In this document: piece after piece, positions 3,666-42,332 of the stretch
Layout of the letters: each line of letters opens with the position of its first letter
How positions within the stretch are numbered: the first letter of the stretch is position 1
Virus record (IMG/VR): IMGVR_UViG_3300012930_000012
Coordinates: 1-64,000 of that record
Reading direction: 5' to 3' (one strand)
Length of the DNA stretch: 64,000 nt
Source of the DNA: a virus
Made by a program: the position numbers and the translations under genes
The notes under the pieces: generated by a model
Told to the model about the DNA's origin: nothing
Database searches by the model: none
Seen by the model: the letters and a program-made list of their open reading frames with translations, nothing else

Positions 3666-5297
3666 CTACGGGGCGATGAAGTTGCTCACGTTGATGTTGA
3701 AGATAATGTGCTTGAATCCACGGTTGGGCACATAGGCAACCGATAGGCCAGCGTACTTGCCTATCTTAAAGTCGCCTGGGTTGGCCTTGGCGTACGGGAT
3801 GAACGGCACCGCATTGATAACCGTTTTGCCGGTGTACAAGCCGGAGTTGACGTTATTGACGAACGTCTGCTGATCCAAGTCAGTCACCACAATGTTTCCC
3901 AGCACAAGGCCGGCGGTGATACCCGATGCCATTGTGCTAACAGCCACCGCCTGGAGCCGGTTGATGCCGTCCTGGTTGTAGTAAAGCGGGTTCTGCGGGT
4001 TGTTGCTGCCGTTGATGACGGCATTGGAAATATTCAGATCCGCGTTGATTTGCACCCAGTCAACGGAGTACCAGAACGTAAAATCGTTGCCATCCTCCGT
4101 GGTACCCCAGAACAGCACGGCGTTGGATATGCCACCTTCCGCCCCGGTACCCACCACGTTCACGTTGGCCGTTTCCAGCAACGATAGAAGTGACCCCTGC
4201 CCCAGCAACGTGAAGGGCGTAACATCGAACAAATAGGAGAACGCGAACGGTGTGACCCTCGTCGCCGGCCCAGGATCATAATTAAGCGCCACCCGGAACG
4301 GAGCCGCCAAGCTGAACTCTGATGTTGGAATGCCAGCCGCCGCGTATGTGCTGGCCACAAGCGTACCGAGCACCGTCTCAACGCCTGGGTTGGTGGCCAA
4401 GCTGTAAACCAACGTCGAGCCTGTCGTGCCTGGCAGAGCTTGCCAGGTGCCGTTGTAGCCCGTTGGCGTGACCCCCAGGATGGTGAAGAACTGTCCAACC
4501 TGAACCAGGTGAGGCGTCGTCGTGGTGCCAGTCACCACACCCCCGGACCACGATATGGCCGTCAGCGCGTTGGCCGGGTAAGCCCCGTACTGCGGATTTT
4601 CGATGAGCGTGATCACATCCTTAAACAAATCCGTGTACAACGGATAATTGGTGAGGTTGGTTGTGACCCAGAAATAAGTCTTAGCCGTAAGACTCTCAAA
4701 CTGCGCTATGAGCGCCAGGAACGACGCCACACCATCCCAGCTCCGCGGTATAAGGTAGCTGTAGAATTGGTTCGGCACCGCAGTAATAAATGTGGAGAGC
4801 GCCGCCACACCGGCCGCCGGCTCACCCGCACCCAGCTCAAGAACGTACACACCCTGGTTGGCCCCCTGGGCAAAAAAGTCGTTATTCATGGCCACCAGTT
4901 CAGCCACATTACGCTGCGTGTAGGTACCGGGCACGGTCTCCGCCCCAGGGTTGAGCGTAAGCAAGTAGGTGAAGGTCGTGCCGGAGGCCACCGTGGCCAT
5001 GTACGTGCCGTTGTAACCCGCTGGCACAGCCCCGACTATGGTGGTGAGGAATTGATCCCCCGTGGTCATGCCGTGCGCGGCCACGGTGGCCGTCACCACA
5101 CCACTGGCCCAAGCGAGGGTTGTGATAGCGTGCGCCGCGGGGAGCAGGGGGGTAAGGTCAGACGGTTGTGTCAGGAAGGAAAACGTGCCGGCCGACAGAA
5201 TGCTGCCACCCTGACTAATAAACGCCCCGCGCTTCTGGAGCGTGTTGGGTGTGGGCGCGACCGTCTGGGTCACATTTACGGCGACTATGGGGTTCAT
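3666..5297 (-). CDS. Tail sheath protein (DUF3383-type) with two inserted beta-modules
   Basis: A 543-residue contractile sheath subunit. The N-terminal PNTLQKRGAFISQGG and the later NNDFFAQGANQGVYVLELG and FYSYLIPRSWDG segments match what I know of the DUF3383 sheath family. Two related ~72-residue insertions, at about residues 56-127 and 243-314, each carry G-D/Q-F...GYNGT followed by a Thr/Gly-rich strand and NPG-ETV-GT. They interrupt the family core and are probably surface-exposed decoration domains on the sheath. Related modules occur in genes at 10281 and 62206. Confidence 0.85.
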   Translation of the reverse strand: MNPIVAVNVTQTVAPTPNTLQKRGAFISQGGSILSAGTFSFLTQPSDLTPLLPAAHAITTLAWASGVVTATVAAHGMTTGDQFLTTIVGAVPAGYNGTYMATVASGTTFTYLLTLNPGAETVPGTYTQRNVAELVAMNNDFFAQGANQGVYVLELGAGEPAAGVAALSTFITAVPNQFYSYLIPRSWDGVASFLALIAQFESLTAKTYFWVTTNLTNYPLYTDLFKDVITLIENPQYGAYPANALTAISWSGGVVTGTTTTPHLVQVGQFFTILGVTPTGYNGTWQALPGTTGSTLVYSLATNPGVETVLGTLVASTYAAAGIPTSEFSLAAPFRVALNYDPGPATRVTPFAFSYLFDVTPFTLLGQGSLLSLLETANVNVVGTGAEGGISNAVLFWGTTEDGNDFTFWYSVDWVQINADLNISNAVINGSNNPQNPLYYNQDGINRLQAVAVSTMASGITAGLVLGNIVVTDLDQQTFVNNVNSGLYTGKTVINAVPFIPYAKANPGDFKIGKYAGLSVAYVPNRGFKHIIFNINVSNFIAP

Positions 5298-25659: not shown

Positions 25660-25949
25660 AGACGGAAGTGTGCGACCACGATTGCTTTGCTGAGGCGGCC
25701 ACAGAATCACAGGCCATGCCAGGCCGGGTGGGCTGGTTCATCTACGTGGCCAACGATGACGACTCTCACACCCATTTCCGCGGCAACACGGCGTTCGCCG
25801 GCAGGGCGCTGGCGGAGCTAGCCCAGAAGGTTATTGCCGGGCACGAGAACACCGGCTGTGTGCAATGTGACACCACGGCCTTGGCTCTTGCGAATGCTTT
25901 GAAGGTTTACCAGGCCACCATGGCATACGCCCGGGGACCAAAATGCTAA
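25656..25949 (+). CDS. Hypothetical protein (97 aa)
   Basis: Starts MKTEVCDHDCFAEAATESQA; four cysteines (CDHDC near the start, CVQC near residue 68) could bind a metal. Overlaps its neighbours. Encoded just before the predicted base-modification enzyme, but no link can be shown. Confidence 0.5.
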   Translation: MKTEVCDHDCFAEAATESQAMPGRVGWFIYVANDDDSHTHFRGNTAFAGRALAELAQKVIAGHENTGCVQCDTTALALANALKVYQATMAYARGPKC

Positions 25950-26833
25950 CCCCCTTGGGCGCCCTTGTGCATTGGGTGAGAGAACGCGAATTGATTCGCG
26001 TTCAGAAAGACCGCGGTGAACCTTTCCCGTGGACCGACGATAAGATCCTTCGCACCTATCGCTTTTGCAACGTGCGCCGCGAGGATGACCGGGTCACCGT
26101 ATGGATCGCGAAGAACATTCGCGAGCCATACGCGGACCACCATCACCTCTGGTTCATGCTGTGCACGGCCAGAATGATAAACTGGCCGCACACGTTGGGC
26201 CTCCTTATAGGAGACCCAACACGCCCCCCAGAAGAGCGCATCTACCCCAACGCCTGGCCGGACTCAGCGTCCTTCTCACCCTCCGCCATGGCCGATGGGC
26301 TCGAGGACGTAGCGTCCATGGGCAAGGCGTTCACGGGCGCCTACATCATCCCATCGCCCGGCAAGGGGGAAAAGAAGCCACGCTGGATGGCCCAATGGGT
26401 GCTGGGTAACCTGTGGAAGGCCCGCGCCAGGTTTGAAACCCACTTTTCCCGCAATCCGTCGCTGCGGAGCACGCACAACCTTTTGACGACATTTGATTGC
26501 TGGGGCAACTTCTTAGCCTACCAGGCCATCATCGACATGCGCCACACGAGCTTGCTCTCAGAGGTCCCTGATCGGAACACCTGGTGCGCGGCCGGGCCAG
26601 GGACGATAAGAGGTCTGAATCGCCTTGCGGGCAGACCTCTTATCGCCCCCCTGACCCAGGAGCGAGCGCTCCTTGAAATTCAGTCACTCCAGCCCGTGGT
26701 GTGTCGGGAAACTGGCATGGACTTTGAACTGTACGAAATAACCGGCATCCTCTGTGAGACCGACAAATACCTCCGGGTAATGAACGGTGAGGGGGAGCCG
26801 CGGGCACGCTACGTGCCGGGGAGGGGGGCGTGA
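25943..26833 (+). CDS. Alpha-glutamyl/putrescinyl-thymine pyrophosphorylase-like DNA modification enzyme
   Basis: The 296-residue protein has a distinctive motif set: WVRERELIRVQ at 11-21, PWTDDKIL, FCNVRREDDRVTVWI at 41-55, AGPGTIRGLNRLAGRP near 218-232, and LCETDKYLRVMNGEGEPRARY near the end. From memory these match the DNA-glycosylase-fold family that Iyer, Aravind and colleagues predicted to make hypermodified thymines (aGPT-PPlase, clade 3). Such enzymes would replace an activated group on 5-hydroxymethyl-dU in DNA by an amine-bearing adduct. No 5-hmdU DNA kinase was seen in this window. Two perfect hairpins lie within the gene (25982-26003; 26604-26645). Confidence 0.65.
   Translation: MLTPLGALVHWVRERELIRVQKDRGEPFPWTDDKILRTYRFCNVRREDDRVTVWIAKNIREPYADHHHLWFMLCTARMINWPHTLGLLIGDPTRPPEERIYPNAWPDSASFSPSAMADGLEDVASMGKAFTGAYIIPSPGKGEKKPRWMAQWVLGNLWKARARFETHFSRNPSLRSTHNLLTTFDCWGNFLAYQAIIDMRHTSLLSEVPDRNTWCAAGPGTIRGLNRLAGRPLIAPLTQERALLEIQSLQPVVCRETGMDFELYEITGILCETDKYLRVMNGEGEPRARYVPGRGA
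26595..26656. repeat. In-gene long hairpin, 14-bp perfect core
   Basis: Core arms CGATAAGAGGTCTG (26604-26617) and CAGACCTCTTATCG (26632-26645), 14-base loop; beyond one mismatch the arms continue as GG/CC, with further partial pairing (CAGG/CCTG). Lies in the predicted base-modification enzyme gene. Confidence 0.8.
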
Positions 26834-28093: not shown

Positions 28094-29623
28094 ATGTCAC
28101 TTGCCGGTGATTTCAAACGCCTGTTCGATGGGCTAGACCGCTCTTACGGCCGCTATGTCGTGCCGACCGGCGCGCGTCCAAACGATAAGGGCAAGCTCCA
28201 CGACCCATCCTGGGCACGCACCGTGCACGGGGAGGTAACGCTTGAGCTTTGGGAACAGCACCTTGAAGGACGCTTTGGGCTAGGGATCGTTCCCATTAGG
28301 GACGATGCCACGTGTGTCTTTGGCGCCATAGACGTTGACATCTATCCGTTGGATCTTATAGACCTTGTAGCCTACGTTAAAAAGATGGAACTCCCCTTGG
28401 TGGTGTGCCGCACCAAATCTGGCGGCGCCCACCTGTACTTGTTTCTCACAGCCCCCGCCTCGGCGGAGCTTGTGAGAAGCAAGCTAATGGAATGGGCCGT
28501 GGTGCTGGGCTACCCCGGCGTTGAAGTATTCCCCAAGCAAACCAGGCTAGCCTCCGAAAAAGATGATGGTTCCTGGATCAATGCACCCTACAACGGTGGC
28601 AAACGATCAACCAGGTACGCGCTTAAACCCGACGGTGCCGCCATGTCGTCGGAGGAGTTTGTCATCGCTGCGCAACGCTCAGCCATAACCCCGCAAAAAC
28701 TGGCCGACTTTGAAATCCCCGCCGATGAAACCTCCGGCGACCTATTCTTAGGCGGCCCCCCTTGCCTCCAGACGCTATCCCGTAAGGGGTTTGGAGATTG
28801 GCAGAACAATGGGCTGTTCAACGTGGCGGTCTACCTCCGTAAGCGATGGGGCGACGGTTGGGAGGACAGGCTCGACGCTTACAATCATAAGTACATGAAC
28901 CCGCCGGTCTCCTCGAAAGATTTAGCCAACATCATCAAGTCGGTTAAGAAAAAAGCGTACTCGTATATGTGCAAGCAAGAGCCCATCTGCGGCGTGTGCA
29001 ACCGCCAGGTTTGCCTCACTCGGGACTTTGGTGTGGGCGGCCTTGGCGACGACCCCGGCGCCGTGCTGGGGGAGCTGTTGAAGCTCGAGACCGACCCGCC
29101 CACCTATATTTGGGACGTGGATGCGGCCCGTATTGAACTTACAGTCGATGACCTCATGGACCAGCGGCGCTTCCACAAGCTGGTGGTACAGCGCCTTAAC
29201 AAGTGGCCCAACATGGTCAAGCCATCTGTGTGGCAAACCATCGTCCGGGATCGGCTGGCCCGGGTTGAGGTGGTTGAAGTGCCCGAAGACGCCACGCGAG
29301 AGGGTCAGTTCTGGGTGCACGTGCAACGGTTTTGCACCTCCAAGGTTCGCGGCCGGAGCATGGATGAGCTATTGCTGGGAAAGCCTTTCACCGAGGATGG
29401 CCGCACCTACTTTTGCTCGACCGACCTCATCCAGTATTTGAACCAGCACCGTTTTAACGGAGTCACCGATAAGGAGGTTTACAAGTGGATGCGTAAACGC
29501 GGGGTGACGCACCACTCAGGCAACCTCAAGGGCAAGTTCGTCAACTACTGGAGCTTGCCGGCATTTCCAGAGCAAACCGTGGACCACGATGTACCGCACG
29601 CGGCCCCGGTGGAGCGTATGTAA
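28094..29623 (+). CDS. Archaeo-eukaryotic-type primase (AEP)
   Basis: Start placed at ATG 28094 (MSLAGDFKRLFDGLDRSYGR). In 509 residues the AEP core is readable: AIDVDIY with D80 and D82 as catalytic acids, RTKSGGAHLYLF at 106-117 and VEVFPKQ. A CKQEPICGVCNRQVC cluster near residue 300 resembles a zinc element of PriCT-type regions. The C-terminal half is helical. It would make primers for the family A polymerase. It ends in a TAATG overlap with the ParB-like gene. Confidence 0.7.
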   Translation: MSLAGDFKRLFDGLDRSYGRYVVPTGARPNDKGKLHDPSWARTVHGEVTLELWEQHLEGRFGLGIVPIRDDATCVFGAIDVDIYPLDLIDLVAYVKKMELPLVVCRTKSGGAHLYLFLTAPASAELVRSKLMEWAVVLGYPGVEVFPKQTRLASEKDDGSWINAPYNGGKRSTRYALKPDGAAMSSEEFVIAAQRSAITPQKLADFEIPADETSGDLFLGGPPCLQTLSRKGFGDWQNNGLFNVAVYLRKRWGDGWEDRLDAYNHKYMNPPVSSKDLANIIKSVKKKAYSYMCKQEPICGVCNRQVCLTRDFGVGGLGDDPGAVLGELLKLETDPPTYIWDVDAARIELTVDDLMDQRRFHKLVVQRLNKWPNMVKPSVWQTIVRDRLARVEVVEVPEDATREGQFWVHVQRFCTSKVRGRSMDELLLGKPFTEDGRTYFCSTDLIQYLNQHRFNGVTDKEVYKWMRKRGVTHHSGNLKGKFVNYWSLPAFPEQTVDHDVPHAAPVERM

Positions 29624-30765
29624 TGGACCTCAAACCCCTAAGCCCAGTAACCATTGACCGCGAGCGAACAAAGCTGGGCAAACGCGGTGAGCTACGCTGG
29701 CTGCACGTAAGACAGCTGGTCGTGGACCCTCGATACCAGCGGGCGGTTGGCCTTAAAGGCACAGACAATATCAAAAAGATCGCGAAGGAATTCTCCTGGA
29801 GCTTCTTTTCCCCGGTCATCGTCTCCCCACGAAAGAGCGGCCAATACGCAATAATAGACGGGCAACACCGCGCCACGGCGGCCGTATCGCGTGGGGATAT
29901 CGAGGAAATCCCGTGCCTGGTGCTGGCGGCAACACCAGAGGAAGAGGCAATGGCCTTCGCCAAGATCAACGGTACCGTAACAAAAGTCTCGCCGCTGGCC
30001 ATCTTCCGCGCCGAGTTTATGGCGGCCAAGCCAGACGTGATGCGCCTAACCGAAATTGTCTTCCGCGCCGATGTTGTAATCTTGGGCTATCCCAAAACCA
30101 AAGACAAGATGCTGGTCGGGGAAACCATGTCTGTTGTGTCAATTAAAGATTGCCTACGCAAGTTTGGGGAAAAGGTTTTGGTGGCGGCCTTGCGGACCAT
30201 TACCAAAACGGGGAATGGGAACCCTGGAATGCTAAAGGAAGAGGTTATATCCGGCACGTGCGACATATTGTCCAATCACCCCCATTGGTGGGTAGATGAA
30301 CCAAAGCTCTTAGCAACCGTGAATGCGGTTGGCATAGTGGAACTCCACAGGCGAGCATCCATAGCCAAAGGTGCCGCCGGAAAAGGCAGCTATCGCGAGC
30401 ACTACGCCTCCGCGTTTCTATCAGCCGTAGCACCGGCCTTTAAACCCACCCAGGTAGCCGTGGGTGTCCATGCCCCCCTGGCTTCGCTACCTACACTACA
30501 AAAACCTGTCAACCACGATCGTGCTCTCATTGAGGCGGCCTTGGCCGCCGGCAAGGTACGACGGTTTGACACCTCAGATTCCAGTGAGTTTTGGGTGCTA
30601 GCGGAATACATGCTCCATCGCACTGGTAAGGAATACAAACTTCTTAAGCGCAAGCCATCGCTGGATGGCCGAATCCTTGATTGGGACAAGTTCTATGAAC
30701 TTGTAAACCGCGAACGTGTCAAGGAAAAGAAACCGCCTATAACCCCCAAGCAAGGAGCAAAATGA
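29623..30765 (+). CDS. ParB/Srx-superfamily protein
   Basis: 380 residues. The N-terminal third has the ParB-like core: LRWLHVRQLVVDPRYQR, SPVIVSPRKSGQYAIIDGQHR and AAVSRGDIEEIPCLVL; IDGQHR is the nucleotide-site signature of this superfamily. The rest is helical, without a known DNA-binding domain. It probably belongs to the phage families of ParB-like proteins of uncertain role rather than to partition proteins, since there is no ParA. Coupled to the primase and to a small gene at 30762. Confidence 0.65.
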   Translation: MDLKPLSPVTIDRERTKLGKRGELRWLHVRQLVVDPRYQRAVGLKGTDNIKKIAKEFSWSFFSPVIVSPRKSGQYAIIDGQHRATAAVSRGDIEEIPCLVLAATPEEEAMAFAKINGTVTKVSPLAIFRAEFMAAKPDVMRLTEIVFRADVVILGYPKTKDKMLVGETMSVVSIKDCLRKFGEKVLVAALRTITKTGNGNPGMLKEEVISGTCDILSNHPHWWVDEPKLLATVNAVGIVELHRRASIAKGAAGKGSYREHYASAFLSAVAPAFKPTQVAVGVHAPLASLPTLQKPVNHDRALIEAALAAGKVRRFDTSDSSEFWVLAEYMLHRTGKEYKLLKRKPSLDGRILDWDKFYELVNRERVKEKKPPITPKQGAK

Positions 30766-35455: not shown

Positions 35456-36087
35456 GCGTGTACCTCATTACCTACCGTAACTACTTGGAGCGTGTGCGGG
35501 TGTACCGCTATGAGACGATACAGGATGCGGATCGGGCGCTGGCGCTGCCGGACGCCGACCAGGCGGTAAGCGGCTTTGTTGCCTCCGTGCCGCACAACAG
35601 TGTGAATACGAGCACCACGCTCCTCCAGGATTTGCTTGACCAGTGGCGCAAGCCAGATGAACCTGAACATGATCTTGGAACCCACGGCAAGGTGAAGCAA
35701 CGCTTCTTTACCGTGCTTGAATCAACTTACGGCCACATTCCTCTGAGTGTGGCACCAGCCTTGCCGGCACCTGGCGCACCGGCCGCTGAAACCAACCCCG
35801 CGCCAACAATGGAGACTGCAATGGCAAAGAAGGCAAAAAAGACACCGAAGGCGAAAAAGGAAGCCAACGGCCCAAAGGCGCCCCGCGCATTGAAGCAGGG
35901 CATGGTGTTCGCGCTCAAGGGCTTCGTGCTCAAGAACCCGGGCATCACGGACGAAGACTTGATGGCGAAGCTCAAGGGCGACGGCTTCAAGCCGGCCGAA
36001 TCCTCGGTGGCCACGTTCCGCCAGGACTTTGTGCACTCCCTGAGGTTTCTCAACCTCCAGGGCTACAAGGTGCCGGAACCCGGCTAA
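35452..36087 (+). CDS. Two-part protein with Lys-rich histone-like C-terminus
   Basis: 211 residues from ATG 35452. Residues 1-~85 form a mixed domain (VYLITYRNYLERVRVYRYET); a Pro/Ala linker ends in MAKKAKKTPKAKKEANGPK, then a winged-helix-like domain (MVFALKGFVLKNPGITDEDL...GFKPAESSVATFRQDF). A second ATG at 35821 with GGAG five bases upstream could make an 88-residue basic DNA-binding protein alone. A nucleoid or transcription role is plausible. Confidence 0.5.
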   Translation: MSVYLITYRNYLERVRVYRYETIQDADRALALPDADQAVSGFVASVPHNSVNTSTTLLQDLLDQWRKPDEPEHDLGTHGKVKQRFFTVLESTYGHIPLSVAPALPAPGAPAAETNPAPTMETAMAKKAKKTPKAKKEANGPKAPRALKQGMVFALKGFVLKNPGITDEDLMAKLKGDGFKPAESSVATFRQDFVHSLRFLNLQGYKVPEPG

Positions 36088-36863
36088 TGTTGGACATACA
36101 CACCTTCGCGTACTTGGATTCACCTACGCCGGTTCAGGTGCGCGAAGGTGTGTTCCTAAAGCGGGACGATTTATTTCTCGCAGCTGGAGCACCGGGTGGC
36201 AAGGCCAGGACTTGCTGGCACCTGTCACAAGGCGCAAAGGGCCTTGTGACAGCGTCCAGCCGGGCATCGCCACAAATGAACATTGTGGCCCGCATTGCCG
36301 CCCACCTGGGCATCCCAGCCAGGCTCCATTGCCCCCAGGGTGCTTTCACACCGGAGATGAACGAGGCCCGCTCCTTTGGAGCGGTCATCGTTCAGCATCG
36401 CGCCGGCTACAACTCGGTCATAAAGGCCCGCGCCAAGGCCGACGCTTTGACACTTGGTTGGACCCACATACCGTTTGGGATGGAATGCCAGGAGGCCGTG
36501 AAGCAAACGGCCACACAAGTGGCACATCTTCCGGCGGAAATACGCCGCGTGGTCATGGCCGTTGGTAGCGGCATGTCGCTGGCCGGCGTGCTCAATGGGC
36601 TCACCCAGCACCGGCTAAACATCCCCATCCTAGGTGTCGTGGTGGGCGCCGACCCCACGGCCAGGCTCACCCAGTACGCCCCACTATTCTGGCGCACTGT
36701 GGTGGAATTGGTGCAGCCCGGCATCGATTATCACAAACCCGCACCATTGACGGACATCGGAGATGTCCATCTTGACCCCATCTACGAGGCCAAGTGTTTG
36801 CCATATCTTAAAGAGGATGACCTCTTTTGGCTGGTGGGCATACGGGCGAGTGCCATGCAATGA
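36087..36863 (+). CDS. PLP-dependent enzyme, fold type II (ACC deaminase/tryptophan synthase-beta-like)
   Basis: 258 residues. FLKRDDLFLAAGAPGGKAR (23-41) carries the probable PLP lysine K39, as in GxKxR of ACC deaminase and D-cysteine desulfhydrase; SRASPQMNIVARIA supplies the SxxN-type substrate loop and VGSGMSLAGVLNG the phosphate-binding glycines. It is shorter than bacterial members (about 330) and begins TAATG. It ends in an ATGA overlap with a DNA methyltransferase-like gene, so the two are probably co-translated. I infer a role in supplying or transferring an amino-acid-derived group for base modification. A 12-bp perfect hairpin lies at 36222-36252. Confidence 0.65.
   Translation: MLDIHTFAYLDSPTPVQVREGVFLKRDDLFLAAGAPGGKARTCWHLSQGAKGLVTASSRASPQMNIVARIAAHLGIPARLHCPQGAFTPEMNEARSFGAVIVQHRAGYNSVIKARAKADALTLGWTHIPFGMECQEAVKQTATQVAHLPAEIRRVVMAVGSGMSLAGVLNGLTQHRLNIPILGVVVGADPTARLTQYAPLFWRTVVELVQPGIDYHKPAPLTDIGDVHLDPIYEAKCLPYLKEDDLFWLVGIRASAMQ
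36222..36252. repeat. In-gene perfect hairpin, 12-bp arms
   Basis: CTGTCACAAGGC and GCCTTGTGACAG around GCAAAGG, in the PLP enzyme gene just after the PLP-lysine segment. Confidence 0.8.
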
Positions 36864-37633
36864 CTGACGACCTCCTCTTTAGCAAGAAGAGTCAAAACCG
36901 CCTCAACGAAATCATGAGCGGAACGGAGGATGGTGGATTTTCAACCGGCACCTCGATCTTCGACCCCGTGCTGTGTGAACTGGTGTACCGTTGGTTCTGC
37001 CCAGGGGGGGGACAGATCATTGATCCCTTTGCCGGCGGGTCCGTGCGCGGCATCGTGGCCGCCAAGTTAGGCTATGCCTACACAGGTATTGACTTATCTA
37101 GCAGACAGCTGGAAGCAAACCGCATCCAGGCCGCCACCATTTGCAAGGATGGGCCAACGCCAACCTGGGTGGACGGCAACAGCCTGGAAATTGAAGCCTT
37201 ACTGGAAGACGTGCGTGCGGACCTTGTATTTTCCTGCCCACCATACGCTGATTTAGAAATTTATTCGGATGACGAGCGGGACCTCTCAACCATGCCGTAT
37301 GAAGAATTCCGTTCGGTGTACACAGAAATCATCGCCGCGTGCGTGCGGATGCTTAAACCCAACCGCTTCGCCTGTTTCGTGGTGGGGGACATCCGCGATA
37401 AAGACGGCTTTTACCGCGGGTTCCCATGGCATACGGTCCAAGCGTTCCAAGATGCAGGTGCCCGGCTGTACAACGAGGCCATCCTTGTTACGGCCGTGGG
37501 GAGCTTGCCGGTGCGCATCACCCGGCAATTTTCAGGCGGGCGCAAGCTAGGCAAGACGCATCAGAACTTATTTGTCTTTTGCAAGGGAGATCCCATGTTA
37601 GCGGCGAGGGCGTGCGGAGCCAAAGATGACTAG
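36860..37633 (+). CDS. SAM-dependent DNA methyltransferase-like protein (SCPPY type)
   Basis: Start at ATG 36860 (MTDDLLFSKKSQNRLNEIMS), 257 residues. Motif I is DPFAGGSVRG (55-64) with acidic GIDLS, and motif IV is FSCPPYADLEIYSDDERDLS (124 onward); (S/D)PPY is the mark of amino-methyltransferases acting on adenine N6 or cytosine N4. The closing SLPVRITRQFSGGRKLGKTHQNL is family-specific. No target-recognition domain or restriction enzyme is nearby. Because it is coupled to a PLP enzyme, its product may be more than a methyl group; this is inference. Confidence 0.75.
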   Translation: MTDDLLFSKKSQNRLNEIMSGTEDGGFSTGTSIFDPVLCELVYRWFCPGGGQIIDPFAGGSVRGIVAAKLGYAYTGIDLSSRQLEANRIQAATICKDGPTPTWVDGNSLEIEALLEDVRADLVFSCPPYADLEIYSDDERDLSTMPYEEFRSVYTEIIAACVRMLKPNRFACFVVGDIRDKDGFYRGFPWHTVQAFQDAGARLYNEAILVTAVGSLPVRITRQFSGGRKLGKTHQNLFVFCKGDPMLAARACGAKDD

Positions 37634-37871: not shown

Positions 37872-38811
37872 CTTCCTAAAACGCGCACTATCCCGCGCCC
37901 CTAATGCCGGCATGTTCGGCTGCTACCACGTGAGCGAAGGCTACATGTTCGCCCAGAACGAAAGCCTCCAGGCCGTGGTCCCGCTTGAATCATCCGATAG
38001 CTTTTCCGTGCCCGGCGAGGAGCTTGAAGCCATGCTGGCGCGGATGCACAGCGACCCACACGTGGAAATAGGCGACGGCGAGCTACGCATCAAGAGCGGT
38101 AGGCTCCGCGGCAACATCCCGTGCGTGCCCGGCACCCCACCCAGCATATTCACCCGCGACGTCGACTGGCTCCCCCTGCCCGACGCCCTGGTGCCGGCGT
38201 TGCAAAAGGCCACCCAGTTCCTCGTGGGCACCAGCCTCATCGGGTGGACAGGGGGCGTGCGGCTCATGGACGGGCGATTGACGACCGTCAATAATCTGTG
38301 CGGCATTGACTTGGCGGTGCCGGGTTGGCAATCCACGCCATCAATTCTCACAAAGGATGGGGCGGAGTTTTTGATGGCAGATCCGCCGTGCGATTACGCG
38401 GCCAAGGCTGGGGCTTTGTTGTTCCGCTGGCCCGATGACCGCTCGGTCCAGTGCCAGCTTATTGACCAGGTGATGCCTGAGCTGGTGGACGACATCTTTG
38501 CCAAGGCTGGCCAGGATGCGCCCGTGGAAATAACCGCCGAGTGGCGCGATGCCTTCGCGGATGCCGCAGCCATATCAGATGAGACGGTCGAGCTACATGC
38601 GGGTCATCTCAAGGTGGGTAAAGGCTCATCCAAGGTCACCCTAGAGGTTTCCACGGCTGTGCCGGCGGACCACGTGTCGTACTGGAACACCAAGGTGCTG
38701 GCTCCGATGGTAGCGGTGGCCACCCATTGGAATCCGCTGGCGCACCCCAAGCCGGCGCTGTTCCGTGGACCGGGGCTGTACGGCGTTGTGATGGGAGTGA
38801 TGCGGCGATGA
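37855..38811 (+). CDS. DNA sliding clamp-like protein (putative beta clamp)
   Basis: ATG 37855 (MHETINFLKRALSRAPNAGM) is preferred to TTG 37849; 318 residues. Repeated strand-helix units (YMFAQNESLQAVVPL; VEIGDGELRIKSGRLRGNIP; LMDGRLTTVNNLCGIDLAVP) resemble the three-domain phage clamp-like proteins encoded before family A polymerases. No catalytic motif. Its place immediately upstream of the polymerase (ATGA) supports a processivity role, but the fold assignment is by eye. Confidence 0.5.
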   Translation: MHETINFLKRALSRAPNAGMFGCYHVSEGYMFAQNESLQAVVPLESSDSFSVPGEELEAMLARMHSDPHVEIGDGELRIKSGRLRGNIPCVPGTPPSIFTRDVDWLPLPDALVPALQKATQFLVGTSLIGWTGGVRLMDGRLTTVNNLCGIDLAVPGWQSTPSILTKDGAEFLMADPPCDYAAKAGALLFRWPDDRSVQCQLIDQVMPELVDDIFAKAGQDAPVEITAEWRDAFADAAAISDETVELHAGHLKVGKGSSKVTLEVSTAVPADHVSYWNTKVLAPMVAVATHWNPLAHPKPALFRGPGLYGVVMGVMRR

Positions 38812-41231
38812 GTGACAAGAAAGAAACCCCATCGCTCGCGGGTGGGCTAACGTTTGGGATGACCAGCGGCCCATACGATGGCCGCGAGGAGCGTCGTAAG
38901 AATAAGGCAAAGGTCGATAGTGCGTTGTACGGGGACGGGCTATTGGGGGATTCGCTTGCGCCCAAACGTAGCGGCGAGCTGGCCAACAAGTTCATGATAC
39001 CGCCGTTCACCGTGTTCAACGCGCGTGAGGGTTGGTGGCAGGATCGCAAGGCAGCCTGGCTGGCGCTGGGCATCCAGAGCGAGCTAGGGCGCGGTGGGGA
39101 TGAAATTGCCGTGGCGGATGCCGCGGCGCTGGACAGCGCCCGCGCTCGAAGCAAGGCCAGTAGCCAGGCGGTAGTCGGCGGCCGTGGTACGGCCATGTCA
39201 AACGCTCTGGCACCCCGAAAACGCAACACCATCCATCGCGCAGACCCCAGCATAACCGTGGTGCATAACCCACCCCCATTGATGGAGCGGGCGGCACCGT
39301 GGGTGGCCCCGTCAGAACTCCCATCACTTCGCGGCGTGAAACGATTATGCGCCGATGTTGAGACCAGGGATGAGCAACTGCTTGAAATAGGCCCCGGTTT
39401 CCACAGGGGGACCTCCTACATCGTGGGGCTCGGCATAGGCACCAACGATGGTCGGCGTTTCTACTTCCCCACCAGACACGAGGGTGGCGGTAACTTAGAT
39501 GAGGGCGTGGTCCAAAAATGGGCGCGCGAGGAGCTAAACGCTTATGATGGCGAGCTGGTTGGCGCCCATAACATCTACGATCTCGAGGCGCTAGGCACCT
39601 GGGGGGTCACGTTTCCTAACGTTAAGGTCCACCACGATATCCAGGTATGTGAACCCTTGCTGGATGAGTGGCGCAACTCGTACACACTGGAAGCCATCGC
39701 CCAGGACTACCTTGGCGAGGGCAAAGTGGAGGGTACGCTCCGGGAAGCCGCGGCGTTGCACGGCGCCACCACCAATTCTCAAATCAAAAAGATCTTATGG
39801 AAATTGCCGGCCGGGTACGTGGGAGCTTACGCGGAGGGGGATGTCGATCTCCCTCTGCGCATTCTCCCGCTCCAGCTAAAGCGCCTCACGGAAGAAAACC
39901 TCGATGAAGTTTACACCGTGGAGCGCAAGCTCATCCCCATCTTGCTCGCCATGCGCCAGCGCGGGATACCCGTCAACACCGACCAGGCGGAGTACGTGCG
40001 GGAACAGCTCACTTTCACCCGCGATGCGGCGCTTAAGCGGGTACGGGATATCGCTGGCCCACAGGCGGAGCTTATGGCCCCGGAGAGCTTTGCCCAGGCG
40101 TTTGTGGACCGCGGGCTGACACCACCTCTAACACCTAGTTCGGGCAAGCCACGGAGCGGCGGAGGTTTTAACCCAGACAAGTTTTCCATCACCAAGGACT
40201 GGCTCAAGGCGCACCAGAACGACGAGCTGGCCGCAGCGCTGTTAGAGGGCCGCGGGGTAGAGCACATCATCAACACCTACATCAACGGCCATATCCTAAC
40301 GCACTCGGTCAACGGCCGGGTGCATTGTGAATTTAACCAGTTAAAATCAGAGGATGAAAAGGGAACCATAGCCCGTTTCTCATCCTCCAACCCCAACATG
40401 CAAAATTTACCTATGCGGGAGGAAGAGCTGGCCGCCATGATCCGCGGCATGTTCCGCCCCGAGGATGGTGAGACCTGGGTGCGGCACGACCTCTCCCAAA
40501 TTGAATATCGGCTACTGGCTCACTTTGCCGTTGGGCCGGGGTCTGAGGAGTGCCGGCGCCAGTACCGCGAGGACCCCAAGACCGACTACCACAAGCTGGT
40601 GGCCACCTGGCTTGGGATTGATCCCGGCGACAAGCACCGCCGAGTCCAGGTTAAAGGCATCAACTTCGCCAAGGGCTATGGTGCTGGGGCACGCAAGCTG
40701 GCCTACCTCATCGGTTGTTCGTTATCGGAGGCCGAGGAGTTCGTTGCCCTTTACGAACAAAAGTTACCGTTCGCCAAGAGCACCTACGATGCCGCCATGC
40801 GATGGGCGGAAAAGCAAGGATACGTGACGACGATCCTTGGCCGCCGGCAGCGCTTCCTCCTTTGGGAACCCTTTGACAACTACCAGCGCGAGAATCCTCC
40901 GTTACGGCACGAAGCCGCGCTTAAGGAGTACGGCCAGCGCATCAAACGCTTCAAGAGTTACGCCGCGCTCAACCGCAAGCTTCAAGGGTCCGGCGCCGAC
41001 GTCATCAAGAAAGGCATGGTGGATGCTTACGAGGCCGGCACGTTTGCCGTACTCGGCGCCCCCCTGGTCACGGTGCACGACGAGCTAGGATGGTCGGTAC
41101 CGAACACGCCTCAAGGTACTGAGGCGTGTTCAGTAGCCCATCGTTGCCTGGAAAAGGCAGTGACGCTCAAGGTGCCGGTGTACGTGGATGAAGGACGTGG
41201 CAAGGATTGGGGGGAGGCCAGCGCGGGATGA
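38808..41231 (+). CDS. Family A DNA polymerase with 3'-5' exonuclease and extra N-terminal domain
   Basis: 807 residues from ATG 38808. The C-terminal polymerase has motif A RHDLSQIEYRLLA, motif B KGINFAKGYGAG and motif C TVHDELGW. The exonuclease has CADVETRDE, AHNIYDLEALG and YAEGDVDLPLRIL. The first ~170 residues are extra: they include IPPFTVFNAREGWWQDRKAA (64-83) and WLALGIQSELGR, a segment I know from ParB-like and methyltransferase-type phage proteins rather than polymerases. The main replicative enzyme. A 12-bp perfect hairpin lies at 41102-41131. Confidence 0.88.
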   Translation: MSDKKETPSLAGGLTFGMTSGPYDGREERRKNKAKVDSALYGDGLLGDSLAPKRSGELANKFMIPPFTVFNAREGWWQDRKAAWLALGIQSELGRGGDEIAVADAAALDSARARSKASSQAVVGGRGTAMSNALAPRKRNTIHRADPSITVVHNPPPLMERAAPWVAPSELPSLRGVKRLCADVETRDEQLLEIGPGFHRGTSYIVGLGIGTNDGRRFYFPTRHEGGGNLDEGVVQKWAREELNAYDGELVGAHNIYDLEALGTWGVTFPNVKVHHDIQVCEPLLDEWRNSYTLEAIAQDYLGEGKVEGTLREAAALHGATTNSQIKKILWKLPAGYVGAYAEGDVDLPLRILPLQLKRLTEENLDEVYTVERKLIPILLAMRQRGIPVNTDQAEYVREQLTFTRDAALKRVRDIAGPQAELMAPESFAQAFVDRGLTPPLTPSSGKPRSGGGFNPDKFSITKDWLKAHQNDELAAALLEGRGVEHIINTYINGHILTHSVNGRVHCEFNQLKSEDEKGTIARFSSSNPNMQNLPMREEELAAMIRGMFRPEDGETWVRHDLSQIEYRLLAHFAVGPGSEECRRQYREDPKTDYHKLVATWLGIDPGDKHRRVQVKGINFAKGYGAGARKLAYLIGCSLSEAEEFVALYEQKLPFAKSTYDAAMRWAEKQGYVTTILGRRQRFLLWEPFDNYQRENPPLRHEAALKEYGQRIKRFKSYAALNRKLQGSGADVIKKGMVDAYEAGTFAVLGAPLVTVHDELGWSVPNTPQGTEACSVAHRCLEKAVTLKVPVYVDEGRGKDWGEASAG
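41102..41131. repeat. In-gene perfect hairpin, 12-bp arms
   Basis: GAACACGCCTCA and TGAGGCGTGTTC around AGGTAC, 3' of polymerase motif C. Others of the set: 34137-34162 (11 bp), 41553-41580 (12 bp, one wobble), 45147-45176 (11 bp), 46207-46241 (15 bp, one wobble). Confidence 0.8.
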
Positions 41232-41892: not shown

Positions 41893-42332
41893 ACCTCAAG
41901 GATAAGGTGTTTGCCGCGCTCGAGAATGCCCTGGCCAACGGCTACAACATGCGCGCGGACCCTGTTGACTCAGTGTGCGTGGACCTGTGCACCTACGACG
42001 CCGATCTCGAGGATTACGATCCCGGGGAGTTGCGGGTGCACGTAACAGAATGGCAAATGGAGAAAAAACACATGCAGACCTTAGATTTAACAACACCAGA
42101 CACCGATGGGTATATCCCCGACCTGAGGCTCTTTGGGTCCAAGTGGCGGCACGCCGGGAACGGGCTCACGTACGAGATCACGGGGTTCGTGTTCTTCGGC
42201 GATGAGGACCGTTGGGCGGTTATACATCGACGTGATGGCGCCCCGGTCATGTTTTCGCGGACCGTCCGTAACTTCTTTGGGCAACGCGGCAATGAGCCAC
42301 GGTACACCGTTGTGAATAAGGTGCCGCGATGA
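41889..42332 (+). CDS. Hypothetical protein (147 aa)
   Basis: GTG start overlapping upstream TGA. Residues 1-55 are acidic and helical; from ~60 onward a beta domain follows (GSKWRHAGNGLTYEITGFVF; RWAVIHRRDGAPVMFSRTV) similar to small DUF1653-like barrels. Could be two fused small proteins. Lies between Dcd and ThyX-like genes. Confidence 0.5.
   Translation: MNLKDKVFAALENALANGYNMRADPVDSVCVDLCTYDADLEDYDPGELRVHVTEWQMEKKHMQTLDLTTPDTDGYIPDLRLFGSKWRHAGNGLTYEITGFVFFGDEDRWAVIHRRDGAPVMFSRTVRNFFGQRGNEPRYTVVNKVPR

Follow-up and report, generated by a model that had tools for sequence, protein, structure and literature searches.

A PLP enzyme and an SCPPY methyltransferase-like protein, recurrently fused in phages, as a candidate two-step DNA-base hypermodification enzyme

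Within the window, by which we mean the entire 64,000-nucleotide stretch analysed here and drawn from an IMG/VR virus record of 73,467 bases, a gene for a fold-type II PLP enzyme is followed by one for an SCPPY amino-methyltransferase-like protein (MTase), and the two are flanked by a helicase and by a sliding clamp and family A DNA polymerase (PolA) (Table 1). The mechanical open reading frame of the MTase starts upstream of the chosen ATG, at 36827, and the two reading frames share the bases ATGA at 36860-36863. We set this overlap aside as proof of coupling, since four-base overlaps are frequent across the same operon (33158, 33522, 38808, 41698, 41889, 42329, 43261) and the shared ATGA is on its own weak evidence.

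Table 1. Features of the window that bear on the PLP-MTase pair
Feature	Coordinates	Strand	Evidence or location
HMUDK_hel protein (PF18723, 5-hmdU DNA kinase helical domain), stand-alone, without kinase domain	25943-26833		6.3e-43
PLP enzyme, fold type II, 258 aa	36087..36863	+	PF00291, phrog profiles, predicted fold
Schiff-base Lys39, in GGK	36201-36203	+	within PLP enzyme
SCPPY amino-MTase-like protein, 257 aa, ATG start	36860..37633	+	PF01555, phrog profiles, conserved columns
Place of PLP-domain insertion in relatives, MTase residues ~97-102	37148..37166	+	Pam4 and ZS04 alignment
Motif IV S125CPPY	37232-37246	+	MTase
MOD module LANKFMIPPFTVFNAREGWWQDRKAAWLALGIQSELGRG, N-terminus of phage family A DNA polymerase (38808-41231)	38967..39104	+	phrog_15396 4.2e-13, PolA residues 42-131

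The sequence-only reading had assigned the first protein to the fold-type II PLP enzymes, with K39 in a GGK motif, and this is borne out both by a PF00291 match above the cut-off (2.6e-13; 50.4 bits against 35) and by a confidently predicted type II PLP fold (pLDDT 96.3, pTM 0.92). Among phage families, the protein matches phrog_3650 best (2.8e-37, residues 4-192), followed by phrog_7093 (1e-12). Across 68 relatives, the columns of K39, S61-P62-Q63, G160, Y215, and Y233-E234-x-K236 show no variation at the named residues, and because of this invariance the enzyme looks catalytically intact. The nearest solved structures are a D-cysteine desulfhydrase and an ACC-deaminase homologue, with threonine/serine dehydratases also among the closest folds. 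The phage protein shares its fold and catalytic lysine with D-cysteine desulfhydrase and ACC deaminase, but it is 60-100 aa shorter, only ~20% identical, and far under the curated cut-offs, TIGR01275 giving 24.8 bits where 289.4 are required.

For the second protein, the earlier assignment as an amino-MTase-like SCPPY protein overlapping the PLP gene likewise holds: PF01555 is matched at 7.7e-10 (39.5 bits; cut-off 26.7), phrog_12517 at 7.8e-97, and phrog_498 at 2e-73. Its motifs depart from the textbook forms. Instead of the canonical motif IV, [DNS]PP[YFW], a Cys precedes PPY in 95-100% of the members of four groups of the family (conserved columns), and CPPY is conserved across all MTase groups; S125 could serve as the motif IV residue in a possible frame that costs one inserted residue. 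Motif I reads FAGGS (or FAGDT) in place of FxGxG, the SAM loop of the window protein being D55PFAGGSVRG. The window MTase is without the ParB and linker-module (MOD) parts that are present in relatives.

The pairing recurs well beyond this phage. Collection scans used close PLP relatives as the query, distant PLP alignments being too diverse, and recovered 99 relatives from 2.9 million viral contigs, of which 80 were kept; a search of 84,980 prokaryote species added a single locus, giving 81 PLP loci. In 46 of these the PLP domain is inserted within the MTase fold of one ParB-MTase protein, six are C-terminal PLP fusions, four are fusions with partial or broken frames, 18 carry PLP and MTase as separate genes, and seven have no MTase in the stretch compared; many of the contigs are fragments. 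Nine records whose MTase was distant or missing were checked whole: five held a clear family MTase, three (L033, L053, L061) held none, and one (L049) gave a weak match only. The insertion place is constant, with a median at profile column 71-72 (window MTase residue ~99) over 52 proteins, and precedes the strand that leads to SCPPY. Named phages show the same designs by tblastn: in Pam4 (Pseudanabaena) and in R6L and ZS04 (Erythrobacter), the order is ParB, MOD, MTase N-half, PLP, and MTase C-half with SCPPY, while in the mycobacteriophages Vincenzo and AlanGrant the PLP gene is overlapped by a ParB-MTase gene.

Several variants stand beside these main architectures. Some ParB-MTase-PLP fusions are ~190 aa longer (L043:3447-6851, L064:3888-6869, L066:1-2235, L073:3948-6824, L075:3669-6956), and in those that were read, a cysteine-rich domain separates PLP from the C-half of the MTase, with a weak DUF3109 match in L064; this domain is perhaps a third tailoring activity. 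A protein of Microcystis phage Mae-JY30 annotated as a 'DNA modification methylase' (L007:4747-5457) is the PLP enzyme (phrog_7093, PF00291). In Staphylococcus phage Alsa_1 (L006:1846-2832, 3878-4606), a different MTase (TSPPYFNLELY) is followed ~1 kb later by a PLP-family protein, possibly a further variant. Clustering the neighbours of the 81 PLP loci brought out no constant third enzyme, mainly terminase and replication genes, and we dropped the idea of a third conserved partner.

Searching with the MTase alone gave the reciprocal view. A PLP-family ORF was present at 47 of 79 new loci, on the same strand and within 1 kb at 42, a rate that is valid for the window-like clade rather than for the whole family, as the set comprises the best 80 of at least 574 matches. 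The remaining 32 window-like MTases have no PLP partner; on the whole records, 31 gave no match and one a 47-aa scrap. We also dropped a different tailoring enzyme as a companion of these MTases, whose neighbours are mainly terminase small subunits. A second MTase-like protein is common to three PLP-less loci and is also found in HCTV-2; proteins of this kind lie directly downstream of some PLP-less MTases (L136:1026-1646, L139:2341-3024, L140:4738-5358, L177:3326-3967). On a quick tree with many weakly supported branches, the partner state (PLP, SpeD, or none) switches at least 26 times and the fused or separate state 14 times, so the linkage is not a single inherited event.

Random co-occurrence, the pattern against which the sequence-only reading had set its claim of a tight pairing, is not what these loci display, given the PLP share of the MTase-only set and the recurrent fusions, and the pairing thus goes far beyond chance. 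Sequence comparison supports the view that the PLP enzyme and the MTase form a functional unit. The same evidence bears on a simpler account, in which the MTase is an ordinary N6-A or N4-C methylase, the PLP enzyme works separately in metabolism, and modular anti-restriction cassettes produce the linkage. The PF01555 match and the partnerless members agree with that account, as does the frequency of ParB-MTases in phages described in PMC12704722 and PMC6536676. Nevertheless, it sits badly with the 46 cases of PLP inserted in the MTase fold, the several ways in which the two are fused, the repeated regain of the partner, and a conserved alternative partner, and we consider it very unlikely.

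That alternative partner is SAM decarboxylase (SpeD). In the PLP-less named phages ZRG1 and P2559S, SpeD is encoded directly behind the ParB-MTase, and among 80 contigs from a scan with this sister MTase clade, 71 have SpeD immediately after the MTase and not one (0/80) has PLP, SpeD being confirmed by PF02675. The same contig comparison found no SpeD in the PLP sets or in the window-type MTase sets: SpeD is a mutually exclusive alternative to PLP as the partner of the MTase. The SpeD clade (L183-L262, L179, L181) has the motif I FD[CT]FAGDTVFG, and two residues of the SAM loop distinguish it: residue 60 is D in 100% of the SpeD-linked MTases, where the PLP-linked ones have G, and residue 63 is F in 97%, where the PLP-linked ones have R. 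Loss of the Arg and gain of the Asp would suit a donor without the carboxylate but still with the amine. An E. coli speD deletion regains spermidine when supplied with the P2559S enzyme, a true SAM decarboxylase that was read there in terms of polyamine metabolism (PMC9992855).

What PLP enzymes would share with SpeD in such a setting can be stated simply. Both act at the alpha-amine/carboxylate end of SAM or of its adduct, and the simplest common denominator is therefore an MTase that transfers the SAM side chain rather than the methyl group. SAM side-chain transfer is carried out by other SAM enzymes on tRNA and rRNA. It is unlikely, in our view, that the PLP enzyme instead alters free SAM before transfer, by decarboxylation, deamination, or otherwise, leaving the MTase to move the altered group. 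SpeD itself works on free SAM, and insertion of PLP beside the SAM-binding half of the MTase would favour channelling; however, PLP-linked MTases keep the G60 and R63 that most partnerless members also have, as if still binding intact SAM, whereas the SpeD-linked loop is changed, and the PLP relatives of phages M6 and ViI serve pathways with amino acids on DNA. Phage enzymes that consume SAM as an anti-defence measure are known, and both PLP and SpeD could in principle counter restriction by depleting SAM or diverting it; we regard this as extremely improbable, for each is linked to an MTase that depends on SAM, and the PLP enzyme often lies within the same polypeptide.

The kinship of the PLP enzyme points the same way. 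The sequence-only reading saw no evident place for such enzymes in phage replication, a view that the homologs do not bear out, since they occur in the 5-hmdU pathways of ViI-like and M6-like phages. By sequence, the PLP family of the window shares ancestry with the PLP enzymes found in thymidine-hypermodification phages of both types: the PLP of Dickeya phage XF4 (Ackermannviridae) is a full-length member of phrog_3650, the top phrog of the window enzyme, and in Pseudomonas phage M6 the PLP ORF, which fits the PLP profile at 3.6e-21, is a full-length member of phrog_7093, the family that the Mae-JY30 and ZS04 enzymes also match. The same MTase family is therefore joined to both PLP branches, the ViI-like (window and most relatives) and the M6-like (Mae-JY30, ZS04). 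In Glutamicibacter phage Montesquieu, a PLP-family member adjoins a thymine-pyrophosphorylase-type gene; this PLP matches 343 phage records, mostly from Salmonella, Vibrio, Klebsiella, and Dickeya groups, to which ViI-like phages belong. In the ViI-like and M6-like pathways, as reported by Lee et al. in 2021, amino acids are appended to 5-hmdU and trimmed by PLP-dependent decarboxylases, among others. A PLP enzyme is listed among the 5-hmdU transformation genes of Ackermannviridae (PMC6336734) and in the M6/SN1 hypermodification cassette (PMC9476957), and M6 and ViI end up with alkylamine bases, 5-NedU and 5-NeOmdU (PMC6449724). The two groups of enzymes share the catalytic Lys and a C-terminal Y-[ED]-x-K, but the M6-like and ViI-like enzymes act on thymine with a 5-hmdU kinase and alpha-glutamyl/putrescinyl-type transferases, whereas here the constant partner is the SCPPY MTase-like enzyme and hmdU genes are normally absent.

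Given this kinship and the alternative partner SpeD, modification of a DNA base with an amino-acid-derived group is the best reading, and the two proteins very probably work together in DNA-base modification. To that extent the earlier proposal stands; its order of events, with PLP making the group and the MTase then transferring it, is less likely than one in which the MTase attaches the SAM side chain and PLP trims it. A version in which PLP would activate serine, cysteine, or a related amino acid through aminoacrylate chemistry and join it to the base, while the MTase would flip that base or act as the transferase, draws on the desulfhydrase, deaminase, and dehydratase folds and on the invariance of K39 and S61. 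It leaves the SpeD partner and the SAM-loop change unexplained, and in the pathways of the PLP relatives the amino acid is attached by other enzymes; we hold it to be distinctly unlikely.

The reading that we prefer, with a probability of about 0.5, is that the pair forms a two-step DNA-base hypermodification enzyme. The SCPPY MTase-like protein would flip a base, whose exocyclic amine would attack SAM at the 3-amino-3-carboxypropyl (acp) carbon instead of the methyl, leaving the base with an alpha-amino-acid side chain. By homology, the PLP enzyme would then use Lys39 to form a Schiff base with the alpha-amine that the side chain on the DNA carries, and removal of the carboxylate would give an aminopropyl base. 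In the sister clade, SpeD would decarboxylate SAM first and the changed MTase would use the decarboxylated donor, arriving at the same kind of product. The purpose would likely be escape from host nucleases and perhaps charge neutralisation for packaging. The transferred group, the target base, the order of steps, and the decarboxylation by PLP are what we infer, and for this exact chemistry, acp transfer to a base amine followed by PLP decarboxylation, we would put the odds slightly short of even. Several points count against it: the MTase has kept its PPY motif and a PF01555 fold that is still recognisable, and might do no more than methylate; it may act without PLP, as its PLP-less relatives suggest; the solved fold-type II relatives are lyases and deaminases, for which decarboxylation is not typical; and a model of the fused PLP-MTase protein (pTM 0.64) does not settle how the two active sites lie with respect to each other.

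A further point against the preferred reading is local to this phage, where the HMUDK_hel protein (Table 1) raises the prospect that PLP serves thymine hypermodification and that the MTase is a bystander. This protein is 38% identical to a 505-aa M6 ORF over 325 aligned columns, and the PLP enzyme is itself kin to those of M6 and ViI. Of the thymidine-hypermodification set (5-hmdU DNA kinase, amino-acid/amine transferase, dUMP hydroxymethylase), however, the record, which may be incomplete, yielded only this kinase-less protein; no ThyA-type synthase (PF00303) was found in it, and ThyX is encoded at 42329. HMUDK_hel was found in none of the 34 other PLP-bearing records searched, including the nearest relative (L015), and we therefore reject it as part of the general system. 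It may have a local role, but that PLP works with it on thymine seems highly improbable.

The window also places the linker module in an unusual position. Elsewhere MOD lies between ParB and MTase, and in phage records it occurs solely in ParB/MTase proteins; the MOD-PolA fusion is confined to the window and its nearest relative (L015/L274), and we rejected it as a wide rule. On PolA, the module is possibly a docking site, and we may speculate that it brings the modification enzymes to the replication fork. The only ParB-like protein in the window is a DUF6551 protein with weak ParB similarity, 6 kb upstream (29623-30765), possibly a ParB-fold partner.

Two further described systems are close. 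ParB-Tls (ParB-terminase) loci have the same ParB-linker-MTase architecture as most relatives of the pair (Iyer et al. 2013, cited in PMC6536676; PMC12704722). In many of those relatives, ParB is fused or adjacent and next to terminase, whereas the window has no ParB next to the pair and carries its linker module on PolA; the excerpted texts of PMC12704722 and PMC6536676 make no mention of a PLP or SpeD partner. The CmoA/CmoX/CmoY system makes 5-carboxymethylcytosine through a C5-cytosine MTase that uses carboxy-SAM (PMC12783734). As proposed for our pair, a DNA MTase homolog there transfers a non-methyl group, a phage enzyme remodels SAM, tailoring follows, and ParB is often present, but the MTase class and the partners differ and PLP is not mentioned (PMC12783734). 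In the part of the literature that we covered, no description was found of a phage MTase with PLP, of one with SpeD, or of acp-DNA.

If the preferred reading is true, the pair would represent a second use of SAM in DNA modification, through its side chain rather than its methyl, and the fused forms would be a compact single-polypeptide enzyme that places primary amines on DNA. Tentatively, and with the balance leaning somewhat against so broad a claim, a widespread family of phage 'methyltransferases' may be aminocarboxypropyl/aminopropyl transferases. They would arrive at N-(3-aminopropyl) bases along two convergent routes, one in which acp is transferred and then decarboxylated by PLP in cis, the other in which SpeD decarboxylates SAM ahead of transfer; no earlier DNA modification would then have been made from the amino-acid part of SAM. 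One testable chemistry would then link many proteins now annotated as ParB, methylase, ACC deaminase, or hypothetical, and would explain why a phage SAM decarboxylase lies beside a DNA methylase. It also leads one to expect new bases of defined exact mass in phages that can be cultured: Mycobacterium phage Vincenzo, Pam4, R6L/ZS04, Croceibacter phage P2559S, and Pseudomonas phage ZRG1.
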